Below, in pieces: positions 29,257-38,699 of a stretch of DNA of 64,000 nt. Each line of letters starts with the position of its first letter. Within the stretch, counting starts at the first letter, position 1. The stretch comes from an uncultured Pelagibacteraceae bacterium (GTDB lineage: Bacteria; Pseudomonadota; Alphaproteobacteria; Pelagibacterales; Pelagibacteraceae), in contig CACJFE010000001.1 in the NCBI GenBank assembly GCA_902592655.1, positions 124,001-188,000 on the forward strand, written 5' to 3'. The notes under the pieces are model-generated. The model had not been told where the DNA came from. It did no database searches and saw only the letters and a list, made by a program, of their open reading frames with translations. The position numbers and the translations under genes were made by a program.

Positions 29257-30534
29257 TTATATATTTATTTTAGGTAAGAAGTCAAATGAAGCTGTATCTA
29301 TTCTGGATGAGTGTTCTCTTCTCATTTTCCAATCGTTACTTATACCAGCTTGAGCTATGCTGATTGCATTTCGACCATATTTAGCATTAGTAAAATCGAT
29401 TGCTCTCATTAGTGGTTGAGATTTTTTCTCTAAAATCGGTGTTAATAAATTTAGCTCTTTTTCAGAAGCATCTCTAAGCTTTGATAAAATAATTCCAGCT
29501 TTTTGGTAAAAATAACCATATTTGTATATTTTCCTAAGTCCGCTAATAGCGGTTTTTACAAGTTCAATACTGTTATTAGTTGCCACCGGCAATTCAATAG
29601 TAATGGAATTCGAATAATATTTTCTACTTCTATCAAATGGACTTGTTCTTATGAATATCGTAACAGCTCTCGTAGTTTGTTTGTCTGTTCTTATTTTTTC
29701 TGCTGCATTTAAACAATGAGTAGTAATAGATTCTTTTAATTTATCTAAGCTTTCTACTTTTTTTCCAAACGATCTTGATACACAGCAACTTTTTCTTCTT
29801 GTTTCTTCAGTTTCTAAATCGATACAAGGAATTCCTCTTAACTCCATTACTGTTTTTGCACCTAAAACATTTGTGCTTTTCTTAACCCAAGTGTTTGAAA
29901 TGTTTTTTAGCTTATAAGCATTGTTTATTCCATTTTTAATATATAGTTTTGATAACTGTCTCCCTACTCCCCATATGTCCGTAATATCAAAATTTTTTAA
30001 TATATTATCGATATTTTCTTTTAGGAATATTACTCCTGCTTTATTTTTTTTAGCTATATGATTTGCAACTTTACTTAAAGTTTTTGTATTTGAAATTCCT
30101 ACACTTGTTGGTATTCCTGTCCACTTTAAAACTCTTTCTCTTATTTGTTTTCCGTATTCTTCAACATGTTCATCCTTAATATGTGATAGATCTAAAAATG
30201 CTTCATCTATAGAATAGATTTCAATTTTATCTGTAAAGCCTTTTAAAACTTTCATCACTCTTCTAGAAAGGTCCCCATACAAAGCATAGTTTGAAGAAAA
30301 TATCTGAACGTTGTTTTTTTTAACTAAATCCTTAACTTTAAAGTACGGTTCTCCCATTCTTATTCCAAGTTTTTTTGCTTCAGTAGATCTTGATATTACA
30401 CATCCATCATTATTAGATAATACGACAACTGGTATATTTTTTATTTTGGGATTGAATAATCTTTCACAAGAAACATAAAATGAATTACAGTCAATTAATG
30501 CAACTTTTTTTTTACTGCTGTTTGTGTATGACAT
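29257..30534 (-). CDS. umuC: DNA polymerase V catalytic subunit UmuC
   Basis: Y-family translesion polymerase. The 425 residues contain ALIDCNSFYVSCERLFNP with the first metal-binding Asp, VVLSNNDGCVISRS, YSIDEAFLDLSH with the DE pair, GIPTSVGISNTKTLSKVAN and IWGVGRQLSKLY. It overlaps umuD by 23 bases, forming an umuDC operon; the thiV riboswitch begins a few bases after its stop. Confidence 0.96.
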   Translation of the reverse strand: MSYTNSSKKKVALIDCNSFYVSCERLFNPKIKNIPVVVLSNNDGCVISRSTEAKKLGIRMGEPYFKVKDLVKKNNVQIFSSNYALYGDLSRRVMKVLKGFTDKIEIYSIDEAFLDLSHIKDEHVEEYGKQIRERVLKWTGIPTSVGISNTKTLSKVANHIAKKNKAGVIFLKENIDNILKNFDITDIWGVGRQLSKLYIKNGINNAYKLKNISNTWVKKSTNVLGAKTVMELRGIPCIDLETEETRRKSCCVSRSFGKKVESLDKLKESITTHCLNAAEKIRTDKQTTRAVTIFIRTSPFDRSRKYYSNSITIELPVATNNSIELVKTAISGLRKIYKYGYFYQKAGIILSKLRDASEKELNLLTPILEKKSQPLMRAIDFTNAKYGRNAISIAQAGISNDWKMRREHSSRIDTASFDFLPKINI

Positions 30535-30907
30535 ATGTTACTACTCCCCAAATTATTATTTCTGGATTGTCTGTTAAATTAATTCGGTCTGATGTGTTTT
30601 TTGAACCTGACGTTAGATAGTTGTTACCTTTACTTTTAACCAGAGTTTTAACTACGAGTTCTTCGTTGATATTTGCTATAACAGTGGAAAAATTTTTTGG
30701 ATTTAAACTTTTATCTACTATTAATAGATCTCCATCATATATTCCCACATTAGTCATAGATTTACCCTGTACTCTAATGATGAAAGTAGCTGGTGCATTT
30801 GTTATGAGATGAGAATTTAGATCTATATCGTCCTCAATATAATCTGTTGCCGGAGAAGGAAAACCAGCTCCCACTTTATGTAAATAATAAGGTATTGTTA
30901 ACTTCAT
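30512..30907 (-). CDS. umuD: UmuD, self-cleaving translesion polymerase subunit
   Basis: S24-family protein that cleaves itself with RecA filaments and joins UmuC as Pol V. The 131 residues show the cut region VGAGFPSPATDY (candidate A14-G15 bond), the serine S50 in VQGKSM and the lysine K87 in VVKTLV; the Ser-Lys spacing of 37 equals that of E. coli UmuD. The N-terminal arm is only about 14 residues, ten shorter than in E. coli. A LexA-type operator and promoter lie directly upstream. Confidence 0.95.
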   Translation of the reverse strand: MKLTIPYYLHKVGAGFPSPATDYIEDDIDLNSHLITNAPATFIIRVQGKSMTNVGIYDGDLLIVDKSLNPKNFSTVIANINEELVVKTLVKSKGNNYLTSGSKNTSDRINLTDNPEIIIWGVVTYVIHKQQ

Positions 30908-31843: not shown

Positions 31844-32578
31844 GTGAAATTTTTAAAAATAATTTCTATTCTATTTTTGCTTCAAGGATGTAGTTCTAAC
31901 TATGAATGGGGTTGGTACATTCTGAGTCCAGATAATATAGATGGTTTAACTAATCTAAAATTTTTAATTAGTGGAATTACAACTACGATTTATATTTCAG
32001 TAGTTTCGATAATTCTAGCAATGATTATCGGTTTGATAGTTGCTCTACCTTCATTGTCAAATAATAAATTCTTAACTTATTTTAACATAACATACGTAGA
32101 AATTGTTAGAGCCATTCCTTTATTAGTTTTAATTCTTTGGATTTATTATGGTCTTCCAATCATGATTGGAGTAAGTTTCTCGCCATTTGTCTCTGGAATA
32201 ATAGCTTTGACCATTAGTGAGAGTGCGTTTCAAGCAGAAATTTTTAGAGCTGGAATTAATTCAATTTCAAAAGGTCAACACGAAGTATCTGAGTCTTTAG
32301 GAATGGATTTTTGGAGAAAAATGAGATTGGTAATTCTTCCGCAAGCAATTAAAGTTGTATTGCCAGCTATGGGAAATCAATTTGTTTATGTATTAAAAAT
32401 GTCCTCTCTAGTATCAATTATAGGGATAGGAGATTTAACAAGAAAAGCTAATGAGCTAGTCACCACTACCTATAGGCCTTTAGAAATTTATACTTTTTTA
32501 ATTCTAGAGTACTTAGTGCTAATTCTTGTTGTGTCTTATTTTGTAAGAAAATTGGAGAATAAACTAGAATATAAATAA
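31844..32578 (+). CDS. Amino-acid ABC transporter permease with lipoprotein-like N-terminus
   Basis: A 244-residue polar-amino-acid-type (HisM/GlnP) permease. GITTTIYISVVSIILAMIIG is the first core helix; ESAFQAEIFRAGINSI and the EAA loop EVSESLGMDFWRKMRLVILP, which contacts the ATPase, are intact. Unusually, residues 1-16 look like a lipoprotein signal with the lipobox LLQGC (C16) followed by SSNYEWGW. The start is GTG. The gene overlaps the converging MATE gene by 15 bases, so an ATPase must be shared from elsewhere. Confidence 0.88.
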   Translation: MKFLKIISILFLLQGCSSNYEWGWYILSPDNIDGLTNLKFLISGITTTIYISVVSIILAMIIGLIVALPSLSNNKFLTYFNITYVEIVRAIPLLVLILWIYYGLPIMIGVSFSPFVSGIIALTISESAFQAEIFRAGINSISKGQHEVSESLGMDFWRKMRLVILPQAIKVVLPAMGNQFVYVLKMSSLVSIIGIGDLTRKANELVTTTYRPLEIYTFLILEYLVLILVVSYFVRKLENKLEYK

Positions 32579-33925
32579 TTTTTTAAAAGAAATCCTAAAT
32601 ACTCTCTTTAAAAAGAATGGTACAAAAGTTAATACAACTAATCCCATCATCCAATTTGTAACTAAAATCGTATAGAAAATATCTTGATATTCACCATTTC
32701 TAATATTTATTACATACCATAAAGACGTAAACGGTATTAAAGTTAATCTAAGTATTGTCATATACAAACTGTAAATAGGTCTTTTAAGTGCCTGGAATAA
32801 AGCAGAGGTAATAAAGAAAACGGGATACACGGGCCCAATTAAAGCTGCAACCTGTAAGTAAAGTGCTCCTCTTCGGATAACTTCTAAATCATTAGTAAAA
32901 AAAGAAATTATAATTTCTGAAGTTAGATAAACAAATATACCTGCTAACACCATAAATCCTGAACCAAACATTAAAGCTTTTCCATATACTTCTTTTACTC
33001 TGAAATACATTTTTGCCCCAAAATTTTGACCTGCAATTGACAAAACTGCGGTATTTAGACCAATGACTGGTAGCAATAGAACTTGTTCTATTCTTACAGC
33101 GGTACCATAACCCGCTGTAGCTAATTCTCCAAACTGTCCAACAAAATAGAAAATATTGAATACCCCAAACATTATCATCAACATAGTAAACATTATTGGT
33201 ACTGATTGTTTAAAAAGCGAGCTTAAGTAATCAATTTTTGGTTTAAAGCATTCTAGATAAAGAAATTTTTTTAATTTACAGCAATAAACTTTATTAGCTA
33301 AATATATTAAGCCCATACACTGAGAAACTATTGTAGCAATAGCTAAACCTGCAATTCCAAATGCTGGTATAAATCCATAACCAAATATGAATAATGGATT
33401 TAAAAAAATATTTAAGAAAAAAGTAAAAATTAAAACATTTCTATAACTTTTTGTATCACCTTGAGCATTTAATGTTCCATTCAAAGATAATTGAACTAAT
33501 ACAATGATAGCTCCAAAAAAAATAATATCTAAGTATTCACGTGTTAAAATTATACTTTCTTCAGTAGAACCCATAATTCTTAAAAGTTCATCAGAAAAAT
33601 TTAAACCAAATAAAGTTACGAAAATTGAAATTACAATTGCTAATATTATTGACTGAGCAACGTACATAGATGCTTTTCTGTCCTCTTTAGCTCCAATTGA
33701 ATTACTAATTAAAGCTGTAGTTCCGGCTCCAATACCAACCGCAACAGCTATTGCTATAAAATAAATTGGCCAGGATTTGGCAATTGCTGCTAGCGCCTCT
33801 GGTGAAATTCTTCCAGCAAAATAAGTATCGACTAGATTGTAAAAAGTTTGAAAGAGAGACCCTGTACTTGCAGGTATGGTTACTTTTCTAAGAAGCTGCC
33901 AAATCGAACCTTTAGTCAAATCCAT
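32564..33925 (-). CDS. MATE family efflux transporter
   Basis: Cation-coupled multidrug/toxin exporter with about 12 membrane segments over 453 residues. Family landmarks are IPASTGSLFQTFYNLVDTYF, a first-half AVAVGIGAGTTALISNSIGA, and the matching second-half GLNTAVLSIAGQNFGAK. The substrate is unknown. It lies two bases downstream of trhO on the same strand. Confidence 0.9.
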   Translation of the reverse strand: MDLTKGSIWQLLRKVTIPASTGSLFQTFYNLVDTYFAGRISPEALAAIAKSWPIYFIAIAVAVGIGAGTTALISNSIGAKEDRKASMYVAQSIILAIVISIFVTLFGLNFSDELLRIMGSTEESIILTREYLDIIFFGAIIVLVQLSLNGTLNAQGDTKSYRNVLIFTFFLNIFLNPLFIFGYGFIPAFGIAGLAIATIVSQCMGLIYLANKVYCCKLKKFLYLECFKPKIDYLSSLFKQSVPIMFTMLMIMFGVFNIFYFVGQFGELATAGYGTAVRIEQVLLLPVIGLNTAVLSIAGQNFGAKMYFRVKEVYGKALMFGSGFMVLAGIFVYLTSEIIISFFTNDLEVIRRGALYLQVAALIGPVYPVFFITSALFQALKRPIYSLYMTILRLTLIPFTSLWYVINIRNGEYQDIFYTILVTNWMMGLVVLTFVPFFLKRVFRISFKKLFIF

Positions 33926-33927
33926 AA

Positions 33928-34833
33928 TTAAAATTCCTTTTGGAACTTATGCTTTCTTCCACCTTTTTTAGCAAGGTTAATTTGATTTTGCCTCATACGA
34001 AATCTAGTTTTTTGTGAATTTGAGAGTGTGTCATAACACCTAGGACATGAAACACCCTCCTCATATTTGTTAGATTTTTTGTCTTTTGGGGAAAAAGGTT
34101 TTCTACAACCACTACATACGGAGTAGGTTCCTTGTTTTAATTTGTGTTTAAGAGATACTCTATTATCAAAAACAAAACACTCACCTTTCCATAGACTGTC
34201 TTTCTTTTCGATTTTATTTAAATAATTAAGTATCCCGCCTTTTAACTGGAAAACATTCTTAAAACCTTTTCTTTTTAAAAATATTGAGGCTTTTTCACAC
34301 CTAATACCCCCAGTGCAAAACATCGCTACAGGTTTTGCTTTATCGATTTTTTTAAGATATTTTGGAAAATCTCTAAAATTTTGGATATTTGGATTTATAG
34401 AATTTTTAAAAGTGCCTACATCGTATTCAAATGGCTTTCTAGCATCTACAACTAAAGTTTCTTTATTTGAAATAAGTTTGTTCCATGATTTCCCATAAAT
34501 ATATCTATTAAGTTTTTTATTATTTGAATTTATTTTTAAACCTAGTGGAACAACTTCATTTTTTATCTTTATTTTTCCTTTATGGAATGGTTGAAAATGA
34601 CTTTGAGACATATTCTTACTGTCAAAATCTTTAATATTAAATACTTTTTTTAAAGATTTAATTATCTGGCTAATATTTCTCCTCTTTCCAGCAATGGTTC
34701 CATTAATTCCTTCTTGGGAAAGTATAATTGTACCACTTATGTTATTTTTTAAGATTTGTCTTTGCAGAAACTCTTTATTTTTCTTCAAAAAATTAATTTT
34801 CTTAAACTTATAAAATCCAAAAACAGTGAACAT
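33928..34833 (-). CDS. trhO: tRNA uridine(34) hydroxylase TrhO
   Basis: Rhodanese-type enzyme (formerly YceA) that uses oxygen to hydroxylate wobble uridine to 5-hydroxyuridine. The 301 residues have the N-terminal GTIILSQEGINGTIAG block, a rhodanese domain with C173 in AMFCTGGIRCEKAS, and a cysteine-rich C-terminal part (CSGCRKPFSPKD, CPRCYD) that probably binds zinc. It shares one base with the upstream O-methyltransferase (TAATG), so the two are translated together. Confidence 0.93.
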   Translation of the reverse strand: MFTVFGFYKFKKINFLKKNKEFLQRQILKNNISGTIILSQEGINGTIAGKRRNISQIIKSLKKVFNIKDFDSKNMSQSHFQPFHKGKIKIKNEVVPLGLKINSNNKKLNRYIYGKSWNKLISNKETLVVDARKPFEYDVGTFKNSINPNIQNFRDFPKYLKKIDKAKPVAMFCTGGIRCEKASIFLKRKGFKNVFQLKGGILNYLNKIEKKDSLWKGECFVFDNRVSLKHKLKQGTYSVCSGCRKPFSPKDKKSNKYEEGVSCPRCYDTLSNSQKTRFRMRQNQINLAKKGGRKHKFQKEF

Positions 34834-35486
34834 TATTTTTTAATACAAATTGTTAATCCATCACCAATGGGAATAATATTTTTTATCACTCTATAATCGT
34901 CTTTTATATATTTGTTAAATTCTCTAATGATATTGGTGTATTTATCATTTTTTGAATTATCTGCTACCTCACCATGCCATAAGACATTATCAATTATAAT
35001 AAGTCCATTTTTACCAATTAATACAATGCTTTTTTCATAATAATTTATATAATTTTCTTTATCTGCATCAATAAAAACCAAATCAAATTTTTGTTTAGCA
35101 TTTTCTAGTTCTTTCAAACTCTCAAGTGCTGGCTTTATAATTTGTGTTATCTTGTTTTCATTAGCCTTATCATAAAAAGATTTTGCTTTTTTACTAAATT
35201 CAACGTTTTTATCTAAGCTAATTAAAGATCCATCATCTGGTAATGATAAGGCCATTGATAAAGCGCTAAAACCTGTAAAACTTCCAATTTCTAAAACTTT
35301 TTTTGTATTAGATGTTTTAATTAATGTTTGAAGAAATTGCGCTTGTGAAATAGAAATTTGCAATTTCTTTTGATCACCAAGACTAAGATTATAATTTAAG
35401 ATCTCTTTTTGAACGTCAGTAAGATTATCAGAATGCTCAATAATATACTTTTCAAGATTATCTGTTAAATCTAATTTTTTAGGCAT
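34833..35486 (-). CDS. SAM-dependent O-methyltransferase (COG4122 family), candidate tRNA 5-hydroxyuridine methyltransferase
   Basis: A 217-residue class I methyltransferase of the catechol/caffeoyl-CoA type. SISQAQFLQTLI precedes the SAM loop VLEIGSFTGFSALSMA; DLVFIDADKENYINYYE and IIIDNVLWHGEV provide the metal-binding aspartates. The same family includes Bacillus TrmR (YrrM), which methylates 5-hydroxyuridine in tRNA. One-base coupling to trhO and the gatCAB genes just upstream suggest that role; small-molecule substrates remain possible. Confidence 0.85.
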   Translation of the reverse strand: MPKKLDLTDNLEKYIIEHSDNLTDVQKEILNYNLSLGDQKKLQISISQAQFLQTLIKTSNTKKVLEIGSFTGFSALSMALSLPDDGSLISLDKNVEFSKKAKSFYDKANENKITQIIKPALESLKELENAKQKFDLVFIDADKENYINYYEKSIVLIGKNGLIIIDNVLWHGEVADNSKNDKYTNIIREFNKYIKDDYRVIKNIIPIGDGLTICIKK

Positions 35487-35488
35487 AA

Positions 35489-36958
35489 TTAGCCTTTTAA
35501 AAGTTTTTTTAGAATCTCGTTTGTTAATTGAGGGTTTGCTTTTCCACCAGATAATTTCATAACCTGTCCAACAAAAAAACCAAATAATTTTTCTTTTCCA
35601 GCTTTGTATTGATCAACTTTATCTTTATTTTTTGATAATATTTCATTAATCATCTTCTGTAATTCTTTAGGATCACTTTGCTGCTTCATTCCTTTTGACT
35701 CTATTATTTTTTTTGGATTATCTCCGCTTTCAACCATAATTTCGAAAACTTCTTTTGCTATTCTTCCTGAAATTTCTCCGGATTTAATTGCTTGAACTAA
35801 CTCTGCAAAATGTTTTGCTGATATAGGAGATTTTGATATATCAAGCCCCTTATCATTTAACATTGCAAATAAATCCCCCATCATCCAAGTTGCTGCAAGT
35901 TTTTTATCAGATAGTTTTGCAACTTCTTCGTAATATTCAGATATTTCTTTTTCTGAGACTAAAACATTTGCTTCATATGCATTTAGTCCATATTCTTTTA
36001 CAAATCTTTCTTTTTTTTTATCAGGAAGCTCCGGAAGAGATTTTTTTAAGCCATCGATTAATTTTTGTTCTAACTTTAATGGAAGAAGATCTGGATCAGG
36101 AAAATATCTATAATCATGTGCATCTTCTTTGGATCTCATTGATCTTGTTTCATTCTTTTTTGTGTCGAAAAGTCTTGTTTCTTGATCTATTTCTTTTCCA
36201 CTTTCTATTAATTCAACTTGTCTTGCAGCTTCATATTCTATTGCCATCTGCATAAATTTTATAGAATTTACGTTTTTGATTTCACATCGTGTTCCAAAAT
36301 TTTTATCGCCTTCTTTTCTTACAGATACATTTACATCTGCTCTAAGTGATCCTTCTTGCATATTTCCGTCACAGGTTCCTAAATATTTCATAATTGATCT
36401 TAATTTTTTTATGTAAGCATTAACTTCATCCGGTGATCTAAGATCTGGTTTGCTGACTATTTCCATTAAAGCAATTCCTGAACGATTTAAGTCTACGTAA
36501 GTATTAGATGGATCCATATCATGAATACTTTTACCCGCATCTTGCTCGAGATGAAGTCTCTCTATGCCAATTTCTTTTGATCCATAAGGCATATCTAATA
36601 AAACTTTGCCTTCTCCTACTATAGGATTCTTATACTGAGATATTTGATAGCCTTGGGGTAAATCTGCATAGAAATAATTTTTCCTGTCAAATACTGAGTG
36701 ATTATTTATTTTAGCATTTAAACCAAGGCCAGTTCTTACTGCTTGCTTAATACATTCTTCATTGATGACCGGTAACATTCCTGGAAAAGCAGAGTCAATC
36801 AAACTCACTTGGTTATTAGGATCAGCACCAAATTTAGTTGATGACCCAGAAAAAAGTTTAGATTTAGATAAAACTTGAGCATGAACTTCAAGCCCTATCA
36901 CAACTTCATATTTCCCTTTTTCTCCCTTAATAAAATAATCAAATTTTTCTTTGCTCAT
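35489..36958 (-). CDS. gatB: Aspartyl/glutamyl-tRNA amidotransferase subunit B
   Basis: tRNA-binding kinase/transamidase subunit converting Glu-tRNA(Gln) or Asp-tRNA(Asn) to the amide. Family motifs are [48 protein letters not shown] and the C-terminal YqeY-like tail [18 protein letters not shown] use the ATG at 36956-36958, which overlaps the gatA stop as ATGA; a GTG three codons upstream is possible. The product has 489 residues, normal length. Confidence 0.97.
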
Positions 36959-38412
36959 GACCACCACTTTTTAATTTCATTTTTAAAACCACAGTTTTTT
37001 TCAAATGCATAACCAATATTAAGAATTTTTTGCTCGTCTAATGCTTTACCAATAAGCTGTAAACCTAAAGGATGACTTTGCTTATCAACACCTGCAGGCA
37101 TTGATAAAGCTGGTAGACCAGCTAAATTTACAGGTACAGTGAAAATATCATTCAAATACATAGAAACAGGATCATTTGTTTTTTCTCCAATTTTGAATGC
37201 AGAACTTGGTGTTGATGGTGTTAAAATTGCATCTATCTTTTTAAAACTATCGTCAAAATCTTTTTTAATTAGTTGTCTCACTTTTTGTGCTTTAAGATAA
37301 TAAGCATCATAATAACCTGAGGAAAGAACGTAAGTTCCAATTAATATTCTGCGTTTAACCTCATCTCCAAAACCTTCAGACCGAGTTTTTTCATACATCT
37401 CAATTAAATCTTTTCCTTGTGTTGATCTATAGCCATATCTAACTCCATCATACCTAGCTAAATTGGACGAAGCTTCAGCTGGAGCAACTATATAATAAGT
37501 AGGTAAAGCATATTTTGTATGAGGCAATGAAATGTCAATTAATTGTGCACCAAGATCTTTTAATATCTTTTTTCCTTTTTCCCATAGTTCATCAACTTCT
37601 TTAGGCATATTGTCAACACGATATTCTTTTGGAATTCCAATTTTTAAACCTTTAATATTATCTTTTAAATTTTTTGAATATTGATCTTTCTTTTTATTTA
37701 TTGAAGTAGAATCTTTTTCATCAAACCCAGACATGGCCTCTAACATAATTGCACAGTCTTTAATAGTTTTTGTCATTGGACCAGCCTGATCTAAAGAAGA
37801 TGCAAAAGCTACTATGCCCCATCTAGAACATAAACCATAAGTTGGTTTTAAACCTACTGTGCCTGTAAAAGAAGCTGGTTGTCTTATTGATCCACCTGTA
37901 TCTGTTCCAATTGTTGCTGGAGTTAAGTCAGCAGCTAAAGCAGATGAGGATCCTCCAGATGAGCCTCCAGGTACTAATTTATCCCCTACAGGATTAATTA
38001 CATTTCCATAATGACTTGTCTCATTAGAAGAACCCATTGCAAACTCATCACAATTTAATTTTCCTAAAAGAAATGATCCACTGTCCCATAAATTTTTTGT
38101 TACTGTTGACTCATAAGATGGAATAAAATTATTTAAAATGTTACTTCCAGCAGTGGTTTTTGTATTTTCTGTGCAAAATAAATCTTTTACAGCTAAAGGT
38201 ATTCCTGGAAGTAATTGATCAAAATTCGGTTTGTTGTCAAATTGTTTAGCTTTAGCTAAAGCATGTTCAAATGTTGTAGTAACAAATGCATTTAACTTTT
38301 TTGCGCTTTCAATATTTTTTATATATGCTTTAGTTAAATCTGTAGAGGATACTTTTTTCGTTTTTACGTTTTCTATAATTTCATTTAGACTTTGATTTGT
38401 AATATCAGTCAT
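36955..38412 (-). CDS. gatA: Aspartyl/glutamyl-tRNA amidotransferase subunit A
   Basis: Amidase that releases ammonia from glutamine for the GatCAB complex. The 485 residues contain the Ser-cis-Ser-Lys triad regions: [19 protein letters not shown] (Lys), [16 protein letters not shown] and [13 protein letters not shown] (serines). It shares one base with gatC and four with gatB, giving an uninterrupted gatCAB operon. Confidence 0.98.
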
Positions 38413-38699
38413 TACTCTACCACCTTAGGTACTACAAAAAATTCTTCATTTGCTTTAGGTGAATTTTTCAGAATTTTCTCTCTTATCTTACCATCACTAA
38501 TTTCATCTTTTCTCGATCTTAATGAGTGATTAAGTATAGAAGTTAATGGTTCAACTTTATCTGTATTTAGTTCATTTAATTGCTCTATAAACTTAAAAAT
38601 AGAGTTTAAATCTTTTGTTAGGCTTTCTACTTTAGCCTCATCGACTGATATTCGAGCTAATTTTGCAACATGTTTAATTTTTTCTTTATCTAGAGACAT
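38412..38699 (-). CDS. gatC: Aspartyl/glutamyl-tRNA amidotransferase subunit C
   Basis: Small stabilising subunit that wraps the GatA-GatB interface. The 95 residues have the expected helix [27 protein letters not shown] and [19 protein letters not shown]. First gene of gatCAB, divergent from ruvX across 52 bases that contain palindromic sequence. Confidence 0.96.

Follow-up and report, generated by a model that had tools for sequence, protein, structure and literature searches.

Here, we propose that two overlapping genes of a SAR11 bacterium form a predicted compact wobble pathway, in which TrhO would make 5-hydroxyuridine at position 34 of tRNA (ho5U34) and a methyltransferase of the CCoAOMT/SynOMT type, rather than a TrmR, would methylate it to 5-methoxyuridine (mo5U34). 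We consider this reading probable. The scheme of a hydroxylase followed by a methyltransferase is known; what our results suggest to be new is the pairing of TrhO with a different methyltransferase lineage. A sequence-only reading of the same DNA had already proposed a mo5U pathway with a TrmR-type enzyme. The TrmR route did not stand up, and the function itself gained support from the linkage of such methyltransferases to TrhO in cyanobacteria and from the mo5U reported in Synechocystis (PMC12860351, in the passages available).

The locus and its hydroxylase

ORF analysis of the window (the whole 64,000-nucleotide stretch of DNA analysed) gives a five-gene run on the minus strand, gatC-gatA-gatB-methyltransferase-trhO (Table 1). 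We take the three same-strand ORFs upstream of the methyltransferase gene to be gatB, gatA and gatC, going by sequence; the gatCAB product works on tRNA. The sequence-only reading had trhO beginning on the final base of the methyltransferase stop codon, behind gatCAB, and the TAATG at the junction, in which base 34833 is common to the stop and start codons, confirms this. After trhO comes an ORF (32564-33925) that is presumably MATE-like. Minus-strand ORFs at window positions 29257-30907 presumably encode a UmuC-type polymerase and a UmuD-like protein, with relatives at 96-98% in locus L021; a pair of this kind is unusual in a streamlined SAR11 genome. The low-GC genome of about 1 Mb fits the SAR11 assignment, which follows the sequence-only reading, as does that of the class to Alphaproteobacteria.

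Table 1. Features of the gatCAB-methyltransferase-trhO run, in window coordinates.
Feature	Position	Strand	Size, evidence and remarks
trhO	33928..34833	-	301 aa; last gene of the run; NF001133, domains, FCTGGIRCEK motif
CCoAOMT/SynOMT-type SAM O-methyltransferase (proposed ho5U34 methyltransferase)	34833..35486	-	217 aa; PF01596, PDB matches, fold
TAATG junction	34831..34835	-	methyltransferase stop and trhO start, one base in common; read from the sequence
gatB	35489..36967	-	ORF; 2 bases upstream of the methyltransferase gene; adjoins it in 19 complete own-family loci
gatA	36955..38412	-	ORF; order kept in 19 own-family loci
gatC	38412..38699	-	ORF; opens the five-gene run; order kept in 19 own-family loci

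The last gene of the run encodes a predicted oxygen-dependent tRNA uridine-34 hydroxylase. Its product scores 269.4 bits on the NCBIfam equivalog NF001133 (curated cut-off 170) and exceeds the Pfam cut-offs for UPF0176_N (74 bits) and Rhodanese (50 bits), with Rhodanese_C slightly below its cut-off (26.3 against 26.9 bits); the best PDB matches are 4f67 and 9j5o. The rhodanese active-site cysteine loop FCTGGIRCE is present in the window protein (as FCTGGIRCEK) and in all 19 complete loci from the window's own family. Equivalog, domains and motif thus bear out the earlier call of a TrhO-type rhodanese hydroxylase.

A methyltransferase of the CCoAOMT/SynOMT type

The upstream gene product matches PF01596 at 197 bits, the sole match over cut-off in the window's own genome (80% complete), and none of the NCBIfam families is matched over its cut-off. 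It had been called TrmR-type, a label that similarity, motifs and fold overturn in favour of the bacterial CCoAOMT/SynOMT-type enzymes, the very outcome that the sequence-only reading had itself named as telling against it. A phmmer search of the PDB places 3r3h (1e-45) and SynOMT, 3cbg (4e-45), first, followed by 3tr6 and 2hnk, with the TrmR chains 8k1f (7e-19) and 5zw3 (2e-17) ranking lower. In a BLAST comparison of the collected sequences, the highest-scoring row from outside the own family, a cyanobacterial one, reaches 182 bits versus 82 for the best TrmR row. When profiles of four rows each were compared (3cbg, 3r3h, L044 and L101 making up the CCoAOMT/SynOMT-type one), this profile beat that of TrmR by 49 to 115 bits in all 20 own-family sequences.

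The motifs agree. Where B. subtilis TrmR has IDAAKGQY and NVLF, the window protein has IDADKENY and NVLW; it also has six residues fewer there and lacks the basic KRRRRL stretch that TrmR carries in a longer insertion, these hallmarks of TrmR being a reading of four sequences from which 3ntv and 8k1f depart in part. The own-family rows carry IDADK and LW, with VDADK in two and DGDK in one as exceptions, and QIS..QA, IDADK.NY and DNVLWHG are common to the window protein and 3cbg. The AlphaFold model (pLDDT 94.5) has 3tr6, 2hnk, 5log (SafC) and 3cbg as its top fold matches, and the 50 fold matches listed include no TrmR chain.

Might the enzyme nevertheless be a true but fast-evolved TrmR orthologue, its origin masked by AT-rich composition? 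The support for this comes from phylogeny. In a set of 65 rows, own-family and TrmR sequences constrained to one clade were not rejected (p-AU 0.957) and scored 32 log units above the quick free tree; composition is odd in 18 rows of the larger, 105-row tree, own-family rows among them, and long branches are present too. In that larger tree (19 own-family loci and the window, 8 rows from the class, 40 cyanobacterial stretches, 29 of the 80 named loci described below, 2 from the order's other family and 6 derived from the PDB), the TrmR rows nevertheless form a starred clade of their own with the own-family rows outside it, as they do in the 65-row subset, both trees having been made by a quick method. 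This separation, the profile scores, the BLAST scores and the missing TrmR motifs all speak against orthology, which we regard as improbable. The own-family rows do not cluster with the TrhO-linked cyanobacterial rows either, which speaks against the mo5U reading. Since neither tree fixed the place of the own-family enzyme, its subtype rests on profiles, motifs and fold, by which it belongs with the bacterial CCoAOMT/SynOMT-type enzymes; the TrmR-type label fails on similarity and motifs, and phylogeny does not decide.

The metal-ligand residues D140, D166 and N167 are invariant in 30 aligned rows and are matched by motif position, not superposition, to D136, D162 and N163 of an Anaplasma enzyme (PMC4636158, in part). 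That family member methylates an outer-membrane protein, according to the same passages, and this points to a different explanation of the locus: the methyltransferase may act on a protein or on a small molecule (a catechol, quinone or other phenol) in an old operon kept by synteny, the product of TrhO staying ho5U34. The nearest structures (SafC, CCoAOMT, SynOMT and COMTD1), which are small-molecule or unassigned O-methyltransferases, fit such a role as well.

Conservation within the order

Our sample of the order comprised 147 genomes, 94 from the window's own family and 53 from the other family, and TrhO was over cut-off in 126 of them (89 and 37, respectively). All 89 own-family genomes that have TrhO carry the methyltransferase gene immediately upstream of it in the same orientation, with 8 to 23 bases between the two profile matches; in one (G034) the gene is split across two contigs, so that a fragment is what is matched next to TrhO. 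Of the remaining five own-family genomes, G122 is cut by a contig end and four (G092, G119, G137 and G145) have no gatB match. Co-loss of both genes in these four was considered and set aside, because with gatB absent too the whole region seems to be missing.

The order gatC-gatA-gatB-methyltransferase-trhO was found in each of the 19 complete own-family loci read. At the junction there is a one-base overlap in nine, a gap of 0 or 1 in three and a longer overlap in seven, the last hinging on the choice of the longest ORF. Across the same loci, identity to the window is 39 to 78% for the methyltransferase and 70 to 94% for GatB, a greater variability than that of its neighbour which would suit a small-molecule or protein substrate. 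The gene after trhO varies by genus, being a relative of the window ORF 32564-33925 in 12 loci and an ORF of 159-164 aa in seven. In these seven (L004, L005 and L007-L011, from genera g2, g4 and g5) the shorter ORF replaces the presumed MATE-like gene; it is a Redoxin by Pfam in L004, the one checked, and most of the seven have a further ORF of 95-100 aa (DUF2805 in L004). Because synteny is high across the whole gatCAB side, adjacency within the own family is by itself weak evidence for a functional pair.

The other family differs. None of its 53 genomes has a PF01596 match above 87 bits, and at five of its TrhO loci the methyltransferase profile finds nothing, the TrhO neighbours identified being an HhH-GPD glycosylase and an acyltransferase. 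The expectation that the pair is conserved across Pelagibacterales therefore holds for the own family and fails for the other, which has TrhO without the methyltransferase. A PF01596 protein of this other family seemed at first a possible TrmR partner and was set aside, the one examined (in L030) having mammalian COMT as its closest match (6e-37) and sitting in a cluster with an FMO, a pyridine-nucleotide oxidoreductase and a methyltransferase. The run of pyridine-nucleotide oxidoreductase, class I methyltransferase, COMT-like protein and FMO-like monooxygenase recurs in L029-L035, as judged by Pfam and PDB matches in L030 and by ORF size and order in the others, and looks like a small-molecule pathway.

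Distribution across the class and in cyanobacteria

Among 240 genomes of the class, TrhO occurs in 79 and the methyltransferase (counted at E up to 1e-20) in 82, with both in 21 versus 27 under independence (odds ratio 0.59, p 0.11). Co-occurrence being below expectation, most relatives of the methyltransferase in the class act without TrhO, which again favours a small-molecule or protein substrate. The same can be said of Bartonella henselae, which has ho5U34 without cmo5U and for which the passages available mention no methylated form (PMC10965804). Outside the own family, 18 genomes of the class carry both genes; they are neighbours in one, G178 (L036), where they stand head to head, and were not found adjoining in the other 17, several of which are fragmented assemblies.

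CmoB, the other user of ho5U34, was over cut-off in none of the 240 class genomes, the window's included, so the absence of cmoB on which the earlier reading depended was upheld. Of the 14 controls, one was over the CmoB cut-off; it is not marked which, E. coli being expected.

A scan of named genomes returned at least 577 relatives of the methyltransferase. Around the best 80 of these at least 577, in flanks of up to 8 kb, some shortened by contig ends, TrhO was found twice, in the cyanobacteria Rivularia (L047) and Plectonema (L053), with the two genes convergent and 44 bases apart in the former and overlapping in the latter. Of the genomes behind these best 80, 50 were searched, and TrhO was over cut-off somewhere in 23. 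Near TrhO in the same two loci lies another methyltransferase-like ORF of 207-209 aa with a GTGEH motif (L053, 9688-10311; L047, 10197-10826).

A wider picture comes from 146 cyanobacterial genomes, of which 64 have TrhO over cut-off. In 51 of these, TrhO is accompanied by a protein scoring no less than 215 bits on PF01596, and in eight (G386, which is Plectonema L053, G452, G463, G499, G534, G435, G460 and G438) the two genes are immediate convergent neighbours, where about 0.03 would be expected by chance, assuming 900 genes per Mb and with relatedness not corrected for; G435 and G499 carry nearly one and the same methyltransferase protein. The genes are not immediately adjacent in the other 43, the methyltransferase lying within about 2.2 kb of TrhO with at least one ORF between in G564, G524 and G549, and farther away or on another contig in 40. 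Presence is associated as well (at 190 bits, the methyltransferase is found in 55 of the 64 genomes with TrhO versus 11 of the 82 without, G471 with its cut TrhO being counted among the latter), an association owed in good part to many small genomes of about 2 Mb that lack both. The pair thus occurs in three orientations, in tandem in SAR11, convergent in cyanobacteria and head to head in G178, which suggests separate joinings. Four cyanobacteria (G457, G475, G534 and G558) have two high-scoring copies, one grouping with most TrhO-linked rows and the other in a separate group, which, with weak support for both groups, suggests a TrhO-partner paralogue.

CmoB was over cut-off in five of the 146 cyanobacteria, all of which have TrhO. 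None of these five reaches 215 bits on PF01596, whereas 51 of the 59 other TrhO-bearing genomes do (p 1.7e-4). This threshold was chosen with the data already in view; if it is lowered to 190 bits, three of the five count as positive and the exclusion is no longer significant (p 0.14). The methyltransferase at 215 bits is missing in the remaining eight of the 59. Four of the five CmoB genomes contributed PF01596 proteins to the tree, where these form a single group together with the protein of G465. TrhO is about 1.9 kb from CmoB in G554 and not on one stretch with it in the other four; yceA close to cmoA in cyanobacteria has been described (Sakai 2019, PMC6599085, in part).

Candidate substrate and role in decoding

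In light of this distribution, what might the methyltransferase act on? One pointer comes from Synechocystis sp. PCC 6803, in whose RNA mo5U is among 21 modifications, found in total RNA by triple-quadrupole LC-MS against standards, with no enzyme named in the passages available (PMC12860351, 2026). Two close relatives, G509 and G526, have methyltransferases 85-86% identical to SynOMT by BLAST, exactly one PF01596 match each and TrhO, and are not among the five CmoB genomes; in neither does the SynOMT-like gene adjoin TrhO. As TrmR scores 95 bits on PF01596, a TrmR in G509 or G526 would have been listed. By elimination among the known families, from two close relatives, SynOMT is thus a candidate for the mo5U synthase of Synechocystis.

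Against a small-molecule or protein substrate stand this reported mo5U with SynOMT as the sole PF01596 match in the two relatives, the fact that cyanobacteria and one further genome of the class also have the gene linked to TrhO, so that three orientations are known, the complementarity with CmoB at the 215-bit threshold, and the neighbouring gatCAB, which itself works on tRNA. On balance we hold such a substrate to be possible but rather unlikely. A further thought is that the pair does act on RNA, with the methyltransferase aimed at another tRNA nucleotide or at a free nucleoside, for example ho5U from RNA turnover. There is a precedent in Rv0187 of the COMT family, which in the passages available methylates free ho5U in vitro and ho5U-tRNA not detectably (PMC6543040), a result that also counts against the mo5U34 reading, but such a target would leave both the mo5U of Synechocystis RNA (PMC12860351) and the complementarity with CmoB unexplained, and we judge it very improbable.

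We accordingly return to ho5U34 as the favoured substrate. TrhO would hydroxylate U34 of the UNN tRNAs of four-codon boxes with O2, giving ho5U34, and the methyltransferase would then O-methylate the 5-OH to give mo5U34, using SAM and a divalent metal predicted from motif position to be held by D140, D166 and N167. The same type of methyltransferase may do this job in many cyanobacteria.

As to the tRNAs served, the own-family genome G003 (99.5% read) has 31 tRNAs by ARAGORN, with UGC only for Ala, UGG only for Pro and both UNN and GNN for Leu, Ser, Thr and Val. ARAGORN lists no tRNA for His in the 99.5% read; such a gene may have escaped the scan or may lie in the remainder. One tRNA lies in the window. 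The other-family genome G002, under 90% read so that absences mean nothing, has 21 tRNAs, Ala GGC among them; with one genome per family, the comparison proves nothing alone. The small tRNA set claimed at the outset is thus seen in one related genome, with a single UNN tRNA for each of the Ala and Pro boxes. A modification through which U34 can pair with any of the four bases would matter for these two amino acids. In G003, tRNA-Ala(UGC) and tRNA-Pro(UGG) are each the sole reader found for their box, and these two at the least would use mo5U34 for U- and C-ending codons.

Whether the proposal extends further is, in our estimation, evenly balanced: the CCoAOMT/SynOMT-type enzymes may be a second lineage of ho5U34 methyltransferases apart from TrmR, working with TrhO in SAR11 and many cyanobacteria, in which case mo5U34 would be common in Gram-negatives and Synechocystis would make its mo5U with SynOMT. 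As a rule, mo5U is attributed to Gram-positive bacteria via TrmR. SAR11 and cyanobacteria are two of the most abundant bacterial groups in surface waters, and if the proposal is true, two globally abundant groups make mo5U with a different enzyme lineage, the structurally known SynOMT gains a cellular function, and there is an explanation for a small tRNA set in which a single tRNA was found for the Ala box and likewise for the Pro box. In the literature passages available, we found no mo5U measurement for SAR11, no description of this pair in SAR11 and no CCoAOMT/SynOMT-type enzyme assigned to ho5U34.

Comparison with known systems

The window methyltransferase is closest in sequence and fold to SynOMT (3cbg), 3tr6, 3r3h, 2hnk and SafC (5log). 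SynOMT and bacterial CCoAOMT-type enzymes are cation-dependent O-methyltransferases of phenolic substrates in vitro; to our knowledge none has been assigned to tRNA, and we know of no agreed cellular role for SynOMT, despite its solved structure. The CmoA/CmoB system of E. coli shares the ho5U34 intermediate but leads to a different product, cmo5U34. In the general scheme, TrhO feeds either TrmR homologues or CmoAB (Sakai 2019, PMC6599085, in the passages available).

The B. subtilis mo5U34 pathway, in which TrmR (YrrM) works with TrhP1/TrhP2 and TrhO, is alike in that hydroxylation of U34 is followed by O-methylation by a SAM-dependent PF01596 enzyme, as proposed here, and in that the methyltransferase gene is linked to a hydroxylase gene in both (PMC6599085, in part; Ryu 2018, as cited there). 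It differs in the partner, B. subtilis TrmR being in the trhP1/trhP2 operon with the TrhO orthologue ybfQ separate (PMC6599085), whereas the partner in the window is TrhO itself, and in the enzyme, the window methyltransferase being of the CCoAOMT/SynOMT type and without the TrmR motifs. A parallel in architecture, which favours the mo5U reading, is the yceA-trmR fusion of Phytophthora and Phaeodactylum, likewise a unit of TrhO and a TrmR-homologous methyltransferase, though fused and eukaryotic and of a subtype not stated in the passages available (Sakai 2019, PMC6599085).
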